Assembly (NCBI GenBank): GCA_035699745.1
Contig: DASSPH010000028.1
Location: forward strand, 1-64,000
From: Vicinamibacterales bacterium
Lineage (GTDB): Bacteria; Acidobacteriota; Vicinamibacteria; Vicinamibacterales; 2-12-FULL-66-21
Length of the DNA: 64,000 bases
Reading direction: 5' to 3'
Shown here one piece after another: positions 6,222-51,941 of this stretch (position 1 is the stretch's first letter; every line of letters starts with the position of its first letter). Made by a program: the position numbers and the translations under genes. Under the pieces are notes generated by a model. It was not told the DNA's origin, did not search any database, and worked only from the letters and a program-made list of their open reading frames with translations.

Positions 6222-7583
6222 ATGTTCGAGTCCCTCTCCAACCGACTGCAGGACGTTTTCCGCAATATCCGCGGAGAGGGGCGGCTCACGGAGGAGACCG
6301 TCGAGCTGGCGCTCCGGGAAATCCGGATGGCGCTGCTCGAGGCCGACGTCAACTTCAAGGTCGTCAAGGCGTTCATCGACCGCGTGCGCGATCGCGCGGT
6401 GGATCGGGAGGTCCTGCGCAGCCTGACGCCGGACCAGCAGGTCGTGCGGATCGTCCGCGACGAGATGCTGGCGCTGTTCGGCGACGCGAAGGGCGGGCTT
6501 CCGCCGTCCGACGCCCGGCCGCGCGTGATCATGCTGCTCGGCCTGCAGGGGTCGGGCAAGACGACGACGTCCGCGAAGCTCGGACGCTGGCTGGCCAGGC
6601 AGGGGCGGCATCCGCTGCTGGTCTCGACGGACGTGCGGCGGCCGGCGGCGATCCAGCAGCTGTCGGTGGTCGGCAAACAGGCCGGCGTGCGCGTGCACGA
6701 TCCGGCAGGGGAGATGGATCCGGTGAAGCGCGCCGCGGGCGCGCTGGCCGAAGCCAGGAACGGCGGCTTCGACGTCGTCATCGTCGATACCGCCGGCCGG
6801 CTGCACATCGACGACGACCTGATGGACGAGCTGCAGGCGATCAAGGCCGCGGTCTCGCCGGTCGATCAGCTGTTCGTCGCCGACGCGATGACCGGGCAGG
6901 ACGCGATCAAGAGCGCCGGCGAGTTCAACCGGCGGATCGGCGTCACCGGCGTCGTGCTGAGCAAGATGGACGGCGACGCGCGCGGCGGCGCGGCGCTGTC
7001 GGTGGTGTCGGTCGTCGGCGTGCCGATCGCGTTCGTCGGCAGCGGCGAGCGGCTGCAGGATCTGGAGCCGTTCCACGCCGATCGCGTGGTGTCGCGCGTG
7101 CTCGGCATGGGCGACGTGCTGTCGCTCATCGAGAAGGCGGAAGAAGCCGTCTCGATGGAAGACGCGGCGAAGCTCGAGGAGAAGATCCGGCGCGACGACT
7201 TCACGCTGGAGGACTTCCGCGATCAGCTGCGCACCATCCGCAAGATGGGGCCGCTCGAGCAGATCCTGGGGATGATCCCGGGAATCGGCGGCGCGATGAA
7301 GGAGCTGAAGGCGCAGAAGGAGCAGGTCGACGAGAAGCAGCTGCGGCGCGTCGAGGCGATCATCAACTCGATGACCGACAAGGAGCGGCGCAACCATCAG
7401 CTGATCAACGGCCAGCGGCGCAAGCGGATCGCCAGGGGCTCGGGCACGTCGGTCGAAGAGGTGAACCGGCTGTTGAAGCAGTTCATCCAGATGAAGAAGA
7501 TGCTCAAGGCGATGGGCGGTATGGCGGGCCTCGGCAAGGGCAAGCGGCCCAATCTCGGGGCCTTGAAGGGGTTGATGCGGTAG
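6222..7583 (+). CDS. ffh: Signal recognition particle protein Ffh
   Basis: GTPase subunit of the signal recognition particle, which binds signal sequences at the ribosome and docks with FtsY. Domains in order: N domain (1-90), G domain (about 95-295) with P-loop GLQGSGKTTTSAKL, DVRRPAA, DTAGRLH and SKMDGDARGG, then the methionine-rich M domain with MGPLEQILGMIPG and a basic RNA-binding segment. I choose ATG at 6222 (453 aa, MFESLSNRLQDVF) because it matches the family N terminus; a GTG six bases upstream is possible. It leads an operon with rpsP, rimM, trmD and rplS, a classical bacterial neighbourhood. Confidence 0.97.
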   Translation: MFESLSNRLQDVFRNIRGEGRLTEETVELALREIRMALLEADVNFKVVKAFIDRVRDRAVDREVLRSLTPDQQVVRIVRDEMLALFGDAKGGLPPSDARPRVIMLLGLQGSGKTTTSAKLGRWLARQGRHPLLVSTDVRRPAAIQQLSVVGKQAGVRVHDPAGEMDPVKRAAGALAEARNGGFDVVIVDTAGRLHIDDDLMDELQAIKAAVSPVDQLFVADAMTGQDAIKSAGEFNRRIGVTGVVLSKMDGDARGGAALSVVSVVGVPIAFVGSGERLQDLEPFHADRVVSRVLGMGDVLSLIEKAEEAVSMEDAAKLEEKIRRDDFTLEDFRDQLRTIRKMGPLEQILGMIPGIGGAMKELKAQKEQVDEKQLRRVEAIINSMTDKERRNHQLINGQRRKRIARGSGTSVEEVNRLLKQFIQMKKMLKAMGGMAGLGKGKRPNLGALKGLMR

Positions 7584-7660
7584 CAGTGCGCAGTGCGCAG
7601 TGCGCAGTGCGGAGTGCGCAGTGCGGAGTGCGCGGTGCGGAGTGCGCAGTGCGCAGTGCG
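7584..7660. repeat. Heptamer array CAGTGCG x 11
   Basis: Eleven consecutive heptamers start at the base after the ffh TAG stop. Seven are CAGTGCG or a one-base variant with C first, and the rest are GAGTGCG or CGGTGCG. A degenerating tail (CTGACAG, GTAGGCAG, TAGCAG) leads to the rpsP ribosome binding site. Unlike the other arrays it has no clear inverted right arm. Confidence 0.92.
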
Positions 7661-7694
7661 CTGACAGGTAGGCAGTAGCAGGCAAAGAGGGCGA

Positions 7695-9810: not shown

Positions 9811-9909
9811 ATTTGGAAATTTGGGAATTTGGGAATTTGGAAATTTACTAATCGGGAAATTTGGTAATTTGGTCCAGATTTCCAAATTTCCAAATTTCCA
9901 AATTCCCAC
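9811..9909. repeat. Palindromic octamer array ATTTGGAA / AAATTTCC
   Basis: The entire 99-base gap between the rplS stop and the rnhB start is one AT-rich array. Eight left-arm units of ATTTGGAA type (9811-9874) are followed by AGATTTCC, AAATTTCC, AAATTTCC and AAATTCCC, the reverse complement of the left words. The arms can form a long hairpin. The same family occurs at 51856-51941. Its low GC contrasts with the GC-rich flanks. Confidence 0.93.
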
Positions 9910-23111: not shown

Positions 23112-26258
<3,147 letters not shown>

Positions 26259-26287
<29 letters not shown>

Positions 26288-26915
26288 CGGCCCCCCTCGG
26301 AATCTTGAAGGCGAACACGTTGTCGGCGATGCCGGTGTTTTCCCGATAGTTGGTGAACGTGAACGTCGAACGGCCCCCCTGCTGGTCGGCGGCGGTCAGC
26401 GCGCGGATCTGGAGTGTCGCCTCGTCCACGGTGACGATCAGCCAGTCGTAGTCGCGCTGTTTCTGCCGCGGATCGAGGCGCAGCGCGACCGCGCCGGCCG
26501 CCGCGGTCTCGACATAGCTCACGTTGAAGTCGCGCAGCAGGCTGCCCTTGCCGGCGAGAAACAACACCGCCGTGGTCGCTTCATCGGCGGAGGGCACGTC
26601 GCTGACGATGACCTGCTTGTCGGCGGGCACGTACGAGAAGATCTTGATGCCGTCGGAGACGAAGGTCTTCTTCTCGGGCGCGGTGTATTCCCACCGCATG
26701 CGTCCGGGCTTCTTGATCTGCACGGTGCCGCGTTCGGTTGATTTCCGATTCAGCACGCCCCCCTCGTAGGCGTGGGTGAAATCGGCGGTGAAGTCTTTGA
26801 CCCGGTCGTACTTCTCCTGCAGCGCCCGGGCGGTCTCGGCCGCCGGACGACGGGATTGGCCCGGGGCAACCGCCGGGACGAGTACGAGCAGAACGGACAG
26901 CAGTAGTGGCGTCAT
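26259..26915 (-). CDS. LolA-like outer-membrane lipoprotein carrier protein
   Basis: Periplasmic protein of 218 aa with a Sec signal peptide (MTPLLLSVLLVLVPAVAPGQ). Its body matches the LolA fold: ALQEKYDRVKDFTADFTHAY, GTVQIKKPGRMRWEYTAPE, FVSDGIKIFSYVP and a C-terminal TFTNYRENTGI. LolA ferries lipoproteins from the inner to the outer membrane. The gene overlaps the start of a secretin-like lipoprotein gene, suggesting the two are expressed together. Whether this is the general LolA or a dedicated carrier cannot be told. The ATG at 26915 is chosen because it gives a clean signal peptide. Confidence 0.88.
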
Positions 26916-26957
26916 GTCGAAGCCGGACGAAACAGGCGGGGCGCAGTTCGAGTGTAA

Positions 26958-27016
26958 CCCACCTTCGCCTCCGGCTTCGGTGGGCAGGCCCACGAGTCGC
27001 CGCCGGCTTCGGTGGG
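26958..27016. repeat. Two tandem 31-32 base hairpin units (CCCACC...GGTGGG)
   Basis: Units at 26958-26984 and 26989-27016 each begin CCCAC(C), contain CCGGCTTC and end GGTGGG, giving a stem of five to six pairs with a GC-rich loop. They lie in the 125-base gap between two minus-strand genes. They resemble REP-type elements rather than the heptamer arrays. Confidence 0.75.
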
Positions 27017-27040
27017 CAGCCGCGCAATTGTGTGCACCTG

Positions 27041-28456
27041 CTACCGCGTCCGCTTGCCGGCGAGGAAGGCGCGCACGTCGGCGAGGGACCGCGTGTTGAG
27101 CACATGGCCCGGCTCCACCCACCCGCGCCGGGCGGTGCCGACGCCCATGCGCATCTGCCGCTCCAGCGCCGGGGCCCGGTGGCAGTCGCTGTCGATCACC
27201 ACCGTCGCCCCCGCCGCGACCGCTTCGCGCGCGCGCTCACCGCTGAGGTCGAGATGGGCGGGCGCGCCGTCGATCTCGAGGGCCGTGCCGGTGGCCGCCG
27301 CCGCCGCATAGATCGCGTCGTAGTCCATGTCGTAGCCGGCACGGCGCCCCACCAGCTGGTTCGCCGGGTGGGTGATCACCGACACGAACGGATGCTCGAT
27401 GGCCGCGAGGCAGCGTCTGGTCAGCCGCGTGCCGTCCTGGCCGGCCGAATCGTGGAGCGACGCGAGGACGATGTCGAGCGAGGCGAGGACGGCATCGGGA
27501 CAGTCGAGCGATCCGTCCGGCATGATGTCCACCTCGATCCCGTGGAGGATCGTCATGTCCGGCACGTCTTGCTGAAGCTGGGCGATCTCGTCCGCCTGCC
27601 GCGCGAGGTCCTCGAGCGTCAGGGTGCGCGAGGCGCCGGCGTGCTCGGAATGATCGGTGATGGCGATGTATTGGTAGCCGAGCGCCCGCGCCGCCAGCAC
27701 CATGTGCCGCAGCGGATCGCGCCCGTCGCTGTAGCTGGTGTGCATGTGCAGGTCGCCGCGGATGTCTTCGCGCGACACGAGCCGGGGTACGGCGTTGGCT
27801 CCCGCCCGATCCAGGGCGTCGGCCGAATCGCGCGTTTCCGGCGGCAGGTACGCGAGGCCGGCGTGCGCGTACGCCTCGGCTTCGGTCGCGGTGAGGCGCG
27901 GCGTTCGCCGTCTGAGCAGCGCCGCGACGTGCGCCGGGGGCCCCGTGGCCGCGAGCAGCACGCTGCCGTACTCGTCCGGCGGCGCGACGCGGACGTCGAT
28001 CTCGACCCCCTCGTACTGCACGATCAGCCGCCGCGCGTTGCGAAGCAGGATCTCTGACGCGGGCAGCAGCGCCGCGACGCACTCGGTTGCGTGGTCCGGA
28101 TTCGCCGTCCGCGCCGCGACGACGAGATGCTGGACGATCGGTTCGCTGCGGCGGACCGCGCCCGCGGCCTCCCAGACGTCCACCGCGGCGCACTGCGAGA
28201 GGCCGGACATGAAGCGATCCAGGATGTCCCACGCGCGCCCGAGGAGGATGGGACGGATCTCGTGGCGGATCCGCTCCGCCGCGCGCCGCAGCGCGCGGTC
28301 CGCCGCCGCCGGGCGCTCTTCGGCAACGGCAAGATCCAGATCGGGCAGGGTTGCGATGCCGTCACGCGCCAGCATCCGCTCCTGCGCGGCGTCGATACTG
28401 CGGAGATCACGAAGGCGCCGGAGCAGGAAGGGGGCGTTCGCGGGCGGGACCGGCAT
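27041..28456 (-). CDS. PolX-like protein with degenerate palm and intact PHP domain
   Basis: Protein of 471 aa colinear with PolX but shorter at the N terminus. Helix-hairpin-helix remnants occupy about 10-60. The palm motif that reads GSLRR...DID in PolX is GAVRRSEPIVQHL here (99-111), so both catalytic aspartates are absent, although the third-aspartate region EIDVRVAPPDE remains. The PHP domain (about 235-465) keeps all metal-binding motifs: GDLHMHTSYSDGR, AITDHSEHAG, GIEVDIMPDG, ASLHDS, THPANQ, IDSDCH. It is therefore expected to be a phosphoesterase or exonuclease without polymerase activity. It lies between a pseudokinase gene and lolA. Confidence 0.85.
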   Translation of the reverse strand: MPVPPANAPFLLRRLRDLRSIDAAQERMLARDGIATLPDLDLAVAEERPAAADRALRRAAERIRHEIRPILLGRAWDILDRFMSGLSQCAAVDVWEAAGAVRRSEPIVQHLVVAARTANPDHATECVAALLPASEILLRNARRLIVQYEGVEIDVRVAPPDEYGSVLLAATGPPAHVAALLRRRTPRLTATEAEAYAHAGLAYLPPETRDSADALDRAGANAVPRLVSREDIRGDLHMHTSYSDGRDPLRHMVLAARALGYQYIAITDHSEHAGASRTLTLEDLARQADEIAQLQQDVPDMTILHGIEVDIMPDGSLDCPDAVLASLDIVLASLHDSAGQDGTRLTRRCLAAIEHPFVSVITHPANQLVGRRAGYDMDYDAIYAAAAATGTALEIDGAPAHLDLSGERAREAVAAGATVVIDSDCHRAPALERQMRMGVGTARRGWVEPGHVLNTRSLADVRAFLAGKRTR

Positions 28457-28483
28457 CCTCCGCGATTGTACTCTCCGCGTCCG

Positions 28484-31400
28484 CTACTTGATGAAGTCCA
28501 CCGAGATGGTGGCCGGTGCGCCCGCGGTGATGGTCACGGTCTGCTTCCGCTCGGGGTATTGCGGGTTCTTGAAGACGATCTCGCGCACGCCGAGGCGAAT
28601 GGGCACGTTGGCCAGCGGCGTCTCGCCGGCCTTCTCGCCGTCGATCCACACTTCGGCCCACGGCGCCGCGTTGATGTTGGCGCGTCCCTGCGGATCGAGA
28701 TCGAGCCGGGTCACTTCGCCCGCCACGATCTCGACCGTCTCGGCCGCGCTGTAGCCAAGGTCCTTGTTCACCAGGCGCAGGATGTGGCGCCCTGGGCTGA
28801 GAAGGATCTGGCTTTCGCTGGTGCCGAGCACCTTGCCGCCCTCCGATACCTGCACCACGAAGGGGATCGAGATCGCGGCGAACCCGGAGTAGAGCGGGAA
28901 GTCGAGCGTCATGACCTGACCGGCCTCGACGCGCACGGTGCGACGGGCGGACCCTTCGCTGCTGGCGATGGCGATGACGTGGCGGCCGGGTTTGACGGCG
29001 TCGATCGTCAGCGGGGTTTCGCCGGCGGGCTTGCCGTCGAGCGAGACCTTCGCACCCGCCGGTTGTGTCGTGATCACCAGGCGGCCGACGTTGGCGCCCA
29101 CCGGCGGCAGCTCCGCCGGCGCGGCGTCCGACTTGGGAATGACCTTCTTGACGGTCTCGACCATCGGCGCGGCGCTCGGTCCGTAGCCGCGGAAGACCGC
29201 GAATCCGCCGGCCAGCAGGATGACGCCGGCGGCGATCAGCTTCCACGGAATCTGCCGGCGCTCCTCGATCGGCCGGAACGGTTCGTACGCCTCGGCCGCC
29301 GACAGGGGGACTGCGACCGGTTCGCGCCGGCTCTCCGCGCGCGACGGCGCGGGCCGCTCGTCGGCCACCTTCAGGCGGATCGGCGAGCCGCTGCTCGCCG
29401 GGACCGGCGCGGGCGGCGGCGCCGGCGGGCGAATCTGCGACAGCGACGCGAGGAACTCTTCCTGCGTGGCGGCCTCGGGCAGCGGCGTCGGTGTCCACGC
29501 CGGGGGGTCGGACGGCGCCACGTAGATCGGGTACGGCTTCACCGGGGCGGCGGGCTTCGGCTCGGGTTCGGTCGCCACCGGTTCGAACGCCGCGGCGCGG
29601 TTCGGCGGCACGAGCCAGCCGCTCTTCGAGACGGCCGGCGCCTGACGGTCGGACTCCGCAGCGGGCTGCTGCTCGCGCTCGCGCTGCTCCGCCTCGAGAC
29701 GGGCCTTCTCCTTCGCGGCGCGATCCTTCTCGGCGCGCTCCTTGTCGCGGCGCTCGGCCTCGAGGCGCTCCTGCTCGCGGCGCTCCGCTTCGGCGCGCGC
29801 CCTCGCGGCGCGTTCCTGCTCGCGCTCGGCCTCCCGGCGTTCCTGCTCGAGGCGCTCCGCTTCGGCGCGCTCCTGCTCGGCGCGCTCCCGTTCGCGGCGC
29901 TCGGCCTCGGCGCGCTCCTGCTCGCGGCGCTCGGCTTCGAGCCGCTCGCGCTCGCGCCGCTCCGTTTCCAGGCGTTCCCGCTCCCGCCGTTCGGCTTCGA
30001 TGCGTTCGCGTTCGATCCGCTCGGCCTCGAGCCGGGCCTGCTCGATGCGCTCCCGTTCCAGCCGCTCGGCTTCGAGCCGCTCGCGTTCGCGGCGCTCCGC
30101 TTCCAGCCGCTCGCGCTCCCGCCGCTCCGCTTCGAGGCGCTCGCGTTCGATACGCTCCCGCTCCAGCCGCTCGGCCTCGAGGCGTTCGCGTTCACGGCGC
30201 TCCGCTTCGAGCCGTTCGCGCTCGCGCCGCTCCGCCTCGAGTCGCGCCTGTTCGATGCGTTCCTTCTCGCGGCGCTCCGCTTCGAGCCGCTCGCGCTCGC
30301 GCCGCTCGGCCTCCAGCCGCTCGCGCTCGCGGCGCTCGGCCTCGAGGCGTTCGCGTTCGAGGCGCTCGTTCTCGAGCCGCTCCGCCTCGAGCCGCTCGCG
30401 CTCGCGGCGCTCGGCCTCGAGCCGTTCGCGCTCGCGGCGCTCCGCCTCCAGACGCGCCTTCTCGATCCGCTCCTTCTCCAGCCGTTCCGCCTCGAGCCGT
30501 TCGCGCTCGCGGCGTTCGGCTTCGGCGCGCTCGCGCGCGATCCGTTCCTGCTCGAGGCGCTCGGCTTCGAGCCGCTCGCGCTCGCGGCGTTCGGCTTCGG
30601 CGCGGTCGCGCGCGGCCCGTTCCTGCTCGAGACGCTCGGCTTCGAGCCGTTCGCGCTCGCGCCGCTCGGCTTCGCGGCGCTCTTCCTCGCGGCGCGCGGC
30701 TTCCGCCCGTTCCCGCTCGGCCTCGCGTCGCGCCTGTTCGGCGCGCTCGCGCTCCTCGCGCTCCGCTTCGGCCCGCTCGCGCGCGACGCGGTCCGCCTCG
30801 ATCCGCTCGCGCTCGGCGCGTTCGGTCTCCGCCCGGCCGCGGCGTCCTGACGGCGCGTCCGCCTTCGCGGCCGGGGCGGCGTCCGCCCATTGCTGGCGAT
30901 CCGCCTCGCGGCGGACGGCGTCCGCGGCGGCGGCAATCCAGCGATCGCGCTCGGCCGCGTCCGCCACGGTGCGCTCGGCGTCCGCGGTCTCGACGTGCTG
31001 CAGGAATTCGAGCAGCGCGGCGCGGCAGGTATTGATCCCCAGCTCCTTCCGCACCAGCTTCCGCAGGTCGATCGCCGCCTCGTCGGCCGTCGGCGTCGTC
31101 CGGCGCCCGGCCAACGGCAGCGTCGCGGCGAAGTACTTGTCGACCGCGTCGGCGAAGGATTTCGATCCGCGGATGGCGGCGATCTCGTGGATCTCGTTCC
31201 TGAGCGGCGGGATCCCCTCGGGATAGTCCCGTTCCTGCAGCGCGCGTCCCACGGTGAGCGACGCGGCGATGATCGAGGCGTGCGCGAGATCGGCGGCCTT
31301 GTCGAACCGGGCGGGACCGGCGGTCGGCGGGAAGGCCAGGCGGAATTCGGCCCACAGCCGCTTGCGCGTCAGCTGCAGCCGTTCGAGCGGTTCGGCGTAG

Positions 31401-31861
31401 ATCGCGTCGAGCAGCGCGAGTTGTCCCGCGGGGGTGATCACGACCCGTCCGGGGGCGAGCGCGCCATGCGCGAGGCCGGCTTCGTGGAGGCGGGAAAGCG
31501 CGGGCAGGATTTCGAGCAGAAGGCCGAGGGCGGCGTCCAGGCCAGCGACGATGCCGTGATCGGCGGCGGCTTCGATGATGTCGGAGAGGCGGCGGCCGGC
31601 GACGTACTCCGAGAGCACCGTCAGCCGATCGTCCTGGCGTTCGGCGGCGCGCGGGCGGGGAAAGCGTTCGTCTTCCAGCGCCGCGACCAGCGCGATCCGC
31701 TCGACCAGGACCTTCTCGAACGCGCTCAGCTCGGGGCGCAGGACGAGCCGTTCCAGCATGCCGCCGGTCTCGCGATCGAACTCGAGCGCACGGCGTCCGA
31801 GGCCGTCCTCGAAGCCGGAGGACGACTGCGTTGACGCGTGATCCGGCAGGGGAACCGACAT
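28484..31861 (-). CDS. Pseudokinase - single alpha-helix - TM - PEGA repeat protein
   Basis: Protein of 1125 aa with four parts. Residues 1-320 resemble a Ser/Thr kinase fold: LTVLSEYVAGRRLSDII fits the hinge and HEAGLAHGALAPGRVVI the catalytic loop, but the HRD aspartate, DFG and Gly-rich loop are missing, so it is a likely pseudokinase. Residues about 337-740 are a charged repeat with a ten-residue period (AERRERERLE), expected to form a long single alpha-helix. A Pro-rich linker and one TM helix (about 868-888, WKLIAAGVILLAGGFAVF) lead to PEGA-type beta domains (about 920-1125). I use the ATG at 31861; a GTG six bases earlier is possible. It probably connects cytoplasm to periplasm. Confidence 0.8.
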   Translation of the reverse strand: MSVPLPDHASTQSSSGFEDGLGRRALEFDRETGGMLERLVLRPELSAFEKVLVERIALVAALEDERFPRPRAAERQDDRLTVLSEYVAGRRLSDIIEAAADHGIVAGLDAALGLLLEILPALSRLHEAGLAHGALAPGRVVITPAGQLALLDAIYAEPLERLQLTRKRLWAEFRLAFPPTAGPARFDKAADLAHASIIAASLTVGRALQERDYPEGIPPLRNEIHEIAAIRGSKSFADAVDKYFAATLPLAGRRTTPTADEAAIDLRKLVRKELGINTCRAALLEFLQHVETADAERTVADAAERDRWIAAAADAVRREADRQQWADAAPAAKADAPSGRRGRAETERAERERIEADRVARERAEAEREERERAEQARREAERERAEAARREEERREAERRERERLEAERLEQERAARDRAEAERRERERLEAERLEQERIARERAEAERRERERLEAERLEKERIEKARLEAERRERERLEAERRERERLEAERLENERLERERLEAERRERERLEAERRERERLEAERREKERIEQARLEAERRERERLEAERRERERLEAERLERERIERERLEAERRERERLEAERRERERLEAERLERERIEQARLEAERIERERIEAERRERERLETERRERERLEAERREQERAEAERRERERAEQERAEAERLEQERREAEREQERAARARAEAERREQERLEAERRDKERAEKDRAAKEKARLEAEQREREQQPAAESDRQAPAVSKSGWLVPPNRAAAFEPVATEPEPKPAAPVKPYPIYVAPSDPPAWTPTPLPEAATQEEFLASLSQIRPPAPPPAPVPASSGSPIRLKVADERPAPSRAESRREPVAVPLSAAEAYEPFRPIEERRQIPWKLIAAGVILLAGGFAVFRGYGPSAAPMVETVKKVIPKSDAAPAELPPVGANVGRLVITTQPAGAKVSLDGKPAGETPLTIDAVKPGRHVIAIASSEGSARRTVRVEAGQVMTLDFPLYSGFAAISIPFVVQVSEGGKVLGTSESQILLSPGRHILRLVNKDLGYSAAETVEIVAGEVTRLDLDPQGRANINAAPWAEVWIDGEKAGETPLANVPIRLGVREIVFKNPQYPERKQTVTITAGAPATISVDFIK
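29640..30850 (-). repeat. Coding repeat region for the E/R-rich helix
   Basis: About 1.2 kb of degenerate 30-base units built from GCTC, GCGC and TCGAG words encode a ten-residue protein period. Because codons for Glu, Arg, Ala and Leu dominate, long stop-free frames appear in other frames on both strands, none of which I consider genes. Confidence 0.85.
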
Positions 31862-31982
31862 GTGCACGGAGCCCAGCGACGGTGCAACCCGCGCTCCAAC
31901 CTGCCATTTCCGTAGTCGGGGACGAAGACCTGTGAACGCTTGGACTTACGGCGATATCAGGGGCCGCGGACGTGTCGATCGA

Positions 31983-32017
31983 TTACAGAACTGTCGGCTA
32001 CTGTCCCGAACCTGTAA
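31983..32017. promoter_or_regulatory. Inverted-repeat operator candidate between divergent genes
   Basis: TTACAG (31983-31988) and CTGTAA (32012-32017) form a perfect inverted repeat, and ACAGAACTGT (31985-31994) is an additional palindrome nested in the left half. The block lies in the 175-base gap between the divergent pseudokinase gene and the small gene at 32037. Binding protein unknown. Confidence 0.4.
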
Positions 32018-32036
32018 CTGCGATAAAGTGGTCCGC

Positions 32037-32306
32037 ATGCCAGATCTGACGGAAATCGAGGCGCTGAAGGCATCGCTGCGCGGCGCCCGCCGTGCGGCCG
32101 AGGCGCTCTCGGACGTCGCCGCCAGAACCGAGGCCGCCGACCCGCGCGCCGACGTGTCCGACCGCGATCTCGACGAGCTTCAGCGCCTGTCGCTGGCGAA
32201 CGCGGTTGCCGCGCAGGCGCTGCGCGGCCTCGTCGAGTCGATGCTGAAACGGCGCGGCAGGCTCACCGAACCGGTGGCCGACGGGGCGGGCGGGATTGAC
32301 GACTGA
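32037..32306 (+). CDS. Small helical protein, function unknown
   Basis: Eighty-nine residues starting MPDLTEIEALKASLRGARRA, predicted largely helical, with many Ala, Arg and Glu and no signal peptide or cysteines. TAAAGT lies seven bases before the ATG, compatible with a leaderless transcript. The frame is open further upstream to 31860, but the upstream part has no sensible composition. I do not recognise the family. Confidence 0.5.
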   Translation: MPDLTEIEALKASLRGARRAAEALSDVAARTEAADPRADVSDRDLDELQRLSLANAVAAQALRGLVESMLKRRGRLTEPVADGAGGIDD

Positions 32307-49175: not shown

Positions 49176-50348
<1,173 letters not shown>

Positions 50349-50521
50349 TGGCGATGGAAGATTGGCGATGGAAGATTGGCGATTGGCGATCGACAAGTGA
50401 TGATTGGCGATTGGCGATCGACGGATTGATCATTGCCAATCGCCAATCGCCACTCCGTCGATCGCCAATCGCCAATCGCCACTTGTCGATCGCCAATCGC
50501 CAACCGCCAATCGCCAATCTG
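50349..50521. repeat. Palindromic heptamer array ATTGGCG / CGCCAAT
   Basis: The whole 173-base gap between frr and thrC is an array. The left arm has ATTGGCG, ATGGAAG and ATCGACA words to about 50430. The right arm has the reverse complements (AATCGCC, CGTCGATCGCC, ACTTGTCG) from about 50434. The symmetry centre is near GATTGATCATT at 50425-50435. The thrC start and the frr stop are within a few bases of the ends. Same family as positions 1-67. Confidence 0.95.
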
Positions 50522-51855: not shown

Positions 51856-51941
51856 ATTATATTTGGAAATTTGGAAATGTTGGAATTTGGAAATCTTGCG
51901 CCCGATTTCCAAATTTCCAAATTCCCAAATTTCCGAATCGC
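51856..51941. repeat. Palindromic octamer array ATTTGGAA / AAATTTCC (second copy)
   Basis: Between tsf and pyrH, four left-arm words (ATTTGGAA, ATTTGGAA, ATGTTGGA, ATTTGGAA) from 51861 are followed by a central TCTTGCGCCCG and right-arm words GATTTCC, AAATTTCC, AAATTCCC, AAATTTCC to about 51932. This is the same word family and arm order as 9811-9909, 42 kb away. The right end is almost flush with the tsf stop. Confidence 0.93.

Follow-up and report, generated by a model that had tools for sequence, protein, structure and literature searches.

The 64,000-nucleotide window analysed here, the whole stretch from position 1 to 64,000 of contig DASSPH010000028.1 (GenBank assembly GCA_035699745.1) from a soil Vicinamibacterales bacterium of the Acidobacteriota, encodes on its minus strand a PEGA pseudokinase of 1125 amino acids (28484-31861, with the ATG at 31861 and the stop at 28484). 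From the N to the C terminus the protein comprises a kinase-like domain, a charged repeat, a Pro/Ala-rich stretch, one transmembrane (TM) helix, and three PEGA-like modules. We think it rather probable that it belongs to an undescribed family of transmembrane pseudokinases that would act as envelope scaffolds, and that the charged repeat, a predicted single alpha-helix (SAH), is one interchangeable spacer. More tentative is a fuller picture that we regard as possible but somewhat doubtful, in which PEGA pseudokinases characteristic of the order would provide an envelope machine with its inner-membrane scaffold, their freely evolving linkers setting its reach, and in which a cytoplasmic SAH of ~59 nm, roughly double the length of the longest myosin SAHs, would here hold a dead kinase far from the membrane. 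The family appears to be undescribed within the literature searched, where we found no paper joining a PEGA domain with a pseudokinase, and neither PEGA nor Acidobacteria is named in a review that covers seven families of bacterial pseudokinases (PMC12599244); its component parts are of known kinds.

The TM helix and PEGA modules noted in a first-pass annotation of this DNA are both well supported. The TM helix (approximately residues 871-889; 29195..29251, minus) was located by a hydropathy scan at a position before PEGA that is conserved in the family, and the C terminus (residues 930-1125; 28487..29074, minus), which is predicted to be periplasmic, belongs to PEGA (PF08308) with a Pfam E-value of 3.3e-23 and 81.8 bits against a cut-off of 20.8, two modules also scoring above the family cut-off in a DNA-level comparison (28892-29086 and 28493-28657). 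The AlphaFold2 (AF2) model of this part has a pLDDT of 91.3 and a pTM of 0.64, the count of three beta modules being our own reading of the strand pattern, and Foldseek returned weak matches only, with large root mean square deviations, as would be expected for a flexible chain of three modules. Because basic residues (EERRQIPWK) precede the TM helix on its N-terminal side, the positive-inside rule puts the N terminus, and with it presumably the head, in the cytoplasm; no signal peptide was seen by eye at the N terminus. Between the charged repeat and the TM helix lies the Pro/Ala-rich segment (residues 733-870; 29252..29665, minus), which holds two motifs considered below. A low-complexity open reading frame on the plus strand (e.g. 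28091-30850) was rejected as a GC-rich shadow frame, the minus-strand protein having both Pfam and fold support.

The head and a short tail take up residues 1-338 (30848..31861, minus), with the fold itself spanning approximately residues 8-300. By sequence alone its identity as a kinase is borderline, since Pfam Pkinase reaches a sub-threshold 13.9 bits against a cut-off of 31.7 and sequence matches in the PDB are weak, the best at 8e-6. Structure prediction gave a confident kinase fold (AF2 from a 37-row alignment, pLDDT 94.6, pTM 0.91), for which Foldseek ranked Mycobacterium tuberculosis PknA (E 7.5e-10), Staphylococcus Stk1, and MST kinases first, and alignment with solved kinases in VIA gave a best Z of 22.0 over 258 residues at 3.1 Å; by all three approaches the head is a member of the protein-kinase fold (PKL). 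In the window protein HRD has become HGA, DFG has become DAI with the DFG Asp itself retained, and HRDxxxxN reads HGALAPGR, so that the earlier description of a kinase-like domain without HRD and DFG was accurate. The same losses were counted in 37 homologues, with the beta3 column set from an alignment of the VAIK-like LVLR and not from superposition: the VAIK Lys is present in none of them and replaced by Arg in 23, HRD is HG followed by A, L, C, T, or S without a single Asp (0/37), the Lys position of the catalytic loop holds G, A, or S and once H, the HRDxxxxN Asn is Arg throughout (37/37), and the DFG position holds Asp in 16 homologues and Glu in the other 21, with Phe-Gly lost. The family thus shows the loss of the beta3 Lys, HRD Asp, and/or DFG Asp by which a pseudokinase is defined. 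The alphaF Asp, which defines the fold, is retained in 36 of the 37, and because it is kept while the catalytic residues are lost, the family appears to maintain the kinase fold under constraint with catalysis gone; judged from these residues, the head would be catalytically dead across the family. It has conserved motifs of its own in place of the canonical ones, DGLGxR near the N terminus and, where the catalytic loop used to be, HGxxxxxR. An Arg adjoins the DFG residue that is always acidic, and the alignment suggests that Arg139 and Asp/Glu152 may pair as a salt bridge where the metal would once have bound.

The first-pass annotation had also set this protein apart from ordinary PEGA kinases, which is correct for catalysis; yet a second PEGA pseudokinase of the same family, C69, from a sister subfamily, is encoded in the same genome. 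It further encodes a PEGA protein with a degraded kinase (C93, a 791-residue frame, L111), in which VAVK is kept, the catalytic loop reads GHGALHPRD, and DFG is replaced by GFG, and a PEGA-like protein whose kinase motifs are intact (C5, with the Lys, HRDIKPGN, and DFG).

The charged repeat (residues 340-732; 29666..30844, minus) is close in extent to the earlier estimate of about 400 residues, comprising 393 residues of which ~36% are Glu and 32% Arg (over a 390-residue core), 15% Ala, and 7% Leu; Pro is absent throughout. It consists of LEAERRERER-like units with 10- and 5-residue periodicity, the hydrophobic residues recurring at periods 5 and 10. Opposite-charge pairs at i/i+4 have a frequency of 0.404 compared with 0.256 (SD, standard deviation, 0.018) in composition-matched shuffles, an excess of ~8 SD, and same-charge pairs have a frequency of 0.075 compared with 0.256 (SD 0.019), a deficit of ~9-10 SD. 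The best LIVMF fraction at core positions was 0.13 at period 7, 0.13 at period 11, and 0.125 at period 15, and there was no spectral power at 3.5-3.75 residues, so that a coiled coil is ruled out for this segment by its periodicity, no heptad, hendecad, or pentadecad core rising above 0.13. The segment has the sequence features of an SAH, being rich in E/R/K and in opposite-charge i/i+4 pairs, free of Pro/Gly breaks, and not a coiled coil. Its helicity is a prediction, to be read with the published observation that strict two-residue charge alternation does not form helices (PMC5378345). From the i/i+4 charge pairing and the absent heptad or hendecad core, the segment looks like a monomeric SAH and not a coiled coil, as the first-pass annotation had supposed, and it would probably be continuous and monomeric in the cell. 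If continuous, the helix would measure ~59 nm at 0.15 nm per residue, in keeping with the earlier figure of about 60 nm, and it carries a net charge of -11. With the longest myosin SAHs at ~200 residues (PMC5378345), a 393-residue helix would be about twice the longest reported for myosins, a comparison that concerns myosins alone. No similar helix was found in other proteins of the same genome, and no solved structure resembled it at E 0.001.

The ~1.2 kb of DNA encoding the charged repeat appears to be genuine. Tandem Repeats Finder reports arrays of 30- and 105-nt periods at 64-75% identity, and the longest exact repeat within the gene is 32 nt, which ordinary reads can span. Repeats one period apart agree at 0.78 of first, 0.71 of second, and 0.54 of third codon positions, and where successive repeats share a residue the codon is identical in 0.51-0.61 of cases compared with a random expectation of 0.54-0.55. 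As synonymous codons lie at random expectation and positions 1 and 2 agree more, the DNA of the repeats is old, and the protein that it encodes has been maintained. The full architecture of head, charged helix, TM helix, and PEGA recurs in two other genomes, G004 and G002. Assembly error as the source of the repeat is unlikely and was ruled out on the short exact repeats, the randomized codons, and the array in two further genomes. Neither of the outcomes that the first-pass annotation held against its own proposal, a coiled-coil dimer (judged here by sequence periodicity) with a canonical kinase site or an assembly error, was found.

Across the family the linker is exchanged while its ends are kept. 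Some match to the head is found in 58 of 60 relatives, many of them only to ordinary kinases, and a subfamily profile at E 1e-30 has matches in 82 of the 162 genomes of the order. In a phylum sample of 149 genomes, which drew eleven genomes of the window's order plus the window's own, five match at 1e-20, all from that order; a contig scan with a 5-row alignment matched four genomes already found (Acidobacteria, of which two bear the label gp6) and gave a partial match on one contig labelled Chloroflexi. The PEGA end is strongly conserved, with 32 invariant columns over 18 proteins, and the linker from head to TM helix ranges from 70 to 1402 residues in the 31 measurable proteins and may be an E/R helix, VEAVQAVET repeats, EPEPEP, Pro-rich, or Ala-rich. 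Only three of 37 homologues have the charged helix, these form one group on the tree (support 99/98), and a single gain of the SAH would account for this; the three closest sisters on the tree are without it, and in sisters of the same subfamily Pro-rich or VEAVQAVET linkers of 91-390 residues take its place. Comparison of repeat length among relatives, which the earlier annotation had proposed, shows that it varies, the helix having 393, 372, and 292 residues in the three carriers. When the arrays are slid against each other no register dominates, the closest pair having a top amino acid identity of 0.49 compared with 0.47-0.48 at other offsets, which indicates that the array has turned over between orthologues. 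Common to the three carriers is a near-membrane motif, S.WL.PP.RAA.FEP (SGWLVPPNRAAAFEP in the window protein), and a PIRLK-like motif (SPIRLK in the window protein) is common to six related proteins. By these sequence comparisons the conserved unit is the pseudokinase with its TM helix and PEGA modules, and not the linker.

Two further linker features were observed among the relatives. A strongly basic 18-mer (e.g. KKKKRRSRRKKGSTAVPT), missing from the window protein, occurs in L047, L054, L056, L046, L064, L063, L058, L059, and L060, roughly 100-270 residues before the TM helix where this could be located. The linkers of L048 and L055 (874 and 831 residues) end before the TM helix in long Ala/Gly/Val-rich, partly hydrophobic stretches, by virtue of which the linker itself may touch the membrane.

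Such variation could be taken to mean that the linker is a neutral low-complexity expansion produced by replication slippage, with no selected role and with the pseudokinase and PEGA doing all of the work. Its length and composition do vary enormously across the family, and its repeats have turned over between orthologues, but we consider this unlikely, since in each of the three carriers the i/i+4 pairing departs strongly from chance with synonymous codons at equilibrium, a drifting repeat would first break the reading or the charge pattern, and no Pro interrupts ~390 residues. Transmission of force or distance, the role first suggested for the helix, would make it, with its length functionally set, a mechanical ruler or a transmitter of force that connects the envelope with a machine in the cytoplasm. 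The helix chemistry is kept even though synonymous sites are saturated, two of the three carriers are similar in length (393 and 372 residues), and SAHs have been described as constant-force springs (PMC4183817); yet a ruler needs a conserved length, and with a third carrier at 292 residues, arrays out of register, and other linkers in sisters of the same subfamily and genomic site, this suggestion is weakened to the point that we give it little credence. Still less probable is that the Arg/Glu helix, or the basic near-membrane motif of relatives (e.g. KRRKRDKSARSKKDRLRS), binds DNA, RNA, or anionic lipid and tethers it to the membrane: a KER-rich single helix in CAF-1 does bind DNA (PMC10335832) and the linkers of several relatives include strongly basic 18-mers, but the helix here is net negative and the window protein has no basic motif.

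The scaffold reading that we prefer would work as follows. The protein would be a bitopic scaffold of the inner membrane, in which the kinase-fold head, devoid of catalysis, serves as a cytoplasmic protein-docking head that a single TM helix joins to three periplasmic PEGA-like modules binding an envelope partner, and in which the variable cytoplasmic linker would set the reach and freedom of the head relative to the membrane. In the window's lineage the linker would have become a salt-bridge-stabilized monomeric SAH of ~390 residues, extending up to ~59 nm if continuous and acting as a stiff monomeric spacer in place of the flexible chains of sister proteins. The fold, the catalytic loss, the helix chemistry, the TM helix and PEGA, the linker exchange, the restriction to one order in our sample, and the co-occurrence with envelope genes are computed, and from them we infer the docking function and the periplasmic partner. 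Experimental work has left bacterial pseudokinases largely unexplored, and the present family is sizeable and clearly bounded, with catalytic loss fixed and replacement motifs conserved. Its linkers are a natural experiment in which the connection between the same head and PEGA end is a rigid helix in some members and a Pro-rich chain or acidic repeats in others, a series that lets one ask directly how a membrane scaffold depends on the stiffness and length of its linker, and the family would add a bacterial membrane example to the known SAHs.

The gene lies among envelope-related neighbors. A gene for a PHP-domain protein (PolX C-terminal-like; 27041..28456, minus) begins 27 nt downstream and is probably co-transcribed with it, followed by genes for the LolA lipoprotein chaperone (26259..27059, minus; NCBIfam lolA, 132.9 bits against a cut-off of 112) and a secretin with N-terminal TPR repeats (24401..26287, minus; Pfam Secretin 2e-38), both assignments agreeing with synteny. 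The order pseudokinase-PHP-LolA-secretin is kept in G004, G002, and G011, and in G008 a PHP match was not seen between the pseudokinase gene and LolA. On the other side a small divergent gene with no Pfam match (31860-32306, plus), whose probable true start lies inside the open reading frame (MPDLTEIEALKAS), adjoins the pseudokinase also in G004, G002, and G008 and is a possible candidate for its partner. In the sister subfamily that includes C69, the immediate downstream genes of 13 loci belong to a single cluster, represented by a protein with matches to TPR and TonB_C. In both subfamilies the gene setting is related to the envelope, in agreement with the PEGA end, any direct link being conjectural.

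Elsewhere in the window, the stretches 9811-9908 and 51861-51938 each consist of ATTTGGAA octamers in tandem and, after them, inverted TTCCAAAT octamers, and these pairs fold into long near-perfect hairpins (-52.1 kcal/mol, z -7.4; -42.0 kcal/mol, z -5.3). With 42 genome-wide matches to the motif compared with 0 for a reversed control, they make up a dispersed family of inverted short tandem repeats. Heptamer arrays at 50347-50519, 7583-7661, and 24365-24407 are, respectively, an ATTGGCG/GCCAATC inverted pair that forms a hairpin of -56.0 kcal/mol (z -7.8), GCAGTGC x11, and GTAACCG x6, the last lying between aroA and the secretin gene, whose ends converge there.

Several observations weigh against the scaffold reading. 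The continuity of the helix rests on sequence only, G007, G013, G017, G029, and G014 have a PHP-LolA-secretin-aroA cluster that lacks the pseudokinase (in G013 PHP was not seen on its short contig), the DFG position is acidic in all 37 homologues so that some residual ligand binding is conceivable, and SelO shares HG at HRD and yet is an active AMPylase. The pseudokinase as an obligate part of the secretin cluster is ruled out by those five other genomes, and since the cluster exists without it, the gene probably joined a pre-existing PHP-LolA-secretin-aroA cluster. That the head is not dead and has an unusual ATP-dependent activity like that of SelO or SidJ, for which the acidic DFG position and the HG shared with SelO (PMC12599244 table) would speak, is the least credible of the alternatives, because the beta3 Lys and catalytic-loop Asn, which SelO-type AMPylases keep along with DFG (PMC12599244 table), occur in 0/37 homologues, the Asn being Arg in every one.

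Among known systems, catalytic PEGA-type Ser/Thr kinases such as C5 share the layout of kinase domain, TM helix, and PEGA, and differ in keeping the Lys, HRDIKPGN, and DFG that the window family has lost. The bacterial pseudokinase families considered were ActPs1-3, GLW, CP1, DYD, and DLHK (PMC12599244). GLW has GLW at HRD and poly-Leu/Trp at beta3, and DLHK and DYD keep the HRD Asp (PMC12599244); the HG[ALCTS]xxxxR motif and mostly LRP beta3 end found here misfit the GLW and DLHK descriptions, these families having been compared by description only. The SAHs of myosin, MAP7, drebrin, and CAF-1 KER are also long, E/R/K-rich, and paired in charge at i/i+4 without a heptad, but belong to eukaryotic cytoskeletal or chromatin proteins, whereas the helix here leads to a bacterial membrane anchor. 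EssB/YukC (PMC12599244) resembles the window protein in having a cytoplasmic pseudokinase with three catalytic motifs degraded, a single TM helix, an extracytoplasmic C-terminal part, and a proposed scaffold role. It differs in lacking PEGA and a long charged linker, in its YTFVLAPD motif where HGALAPGR stands here, and in belonging to the type VIIb secretion system (T7SSb) of Firmicutes; with no T7SS gene in the neighborhood scanned (the neighbors being PHP, LolA, and secretin), the likeness would be one of working principle. The MviN pseudokinase domain of Mycobacterium (ActPs3; PMC12599244) is likewise attached to the membrane and regulates envelope synthesis without catalysis, though it is part of a multi-pass flippase of actinobacteria with other motifs and an activation-loop deletion. 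EssB/YukC and MviN would thus be the closest precedents for this protein, as analogues and not as members of its family.

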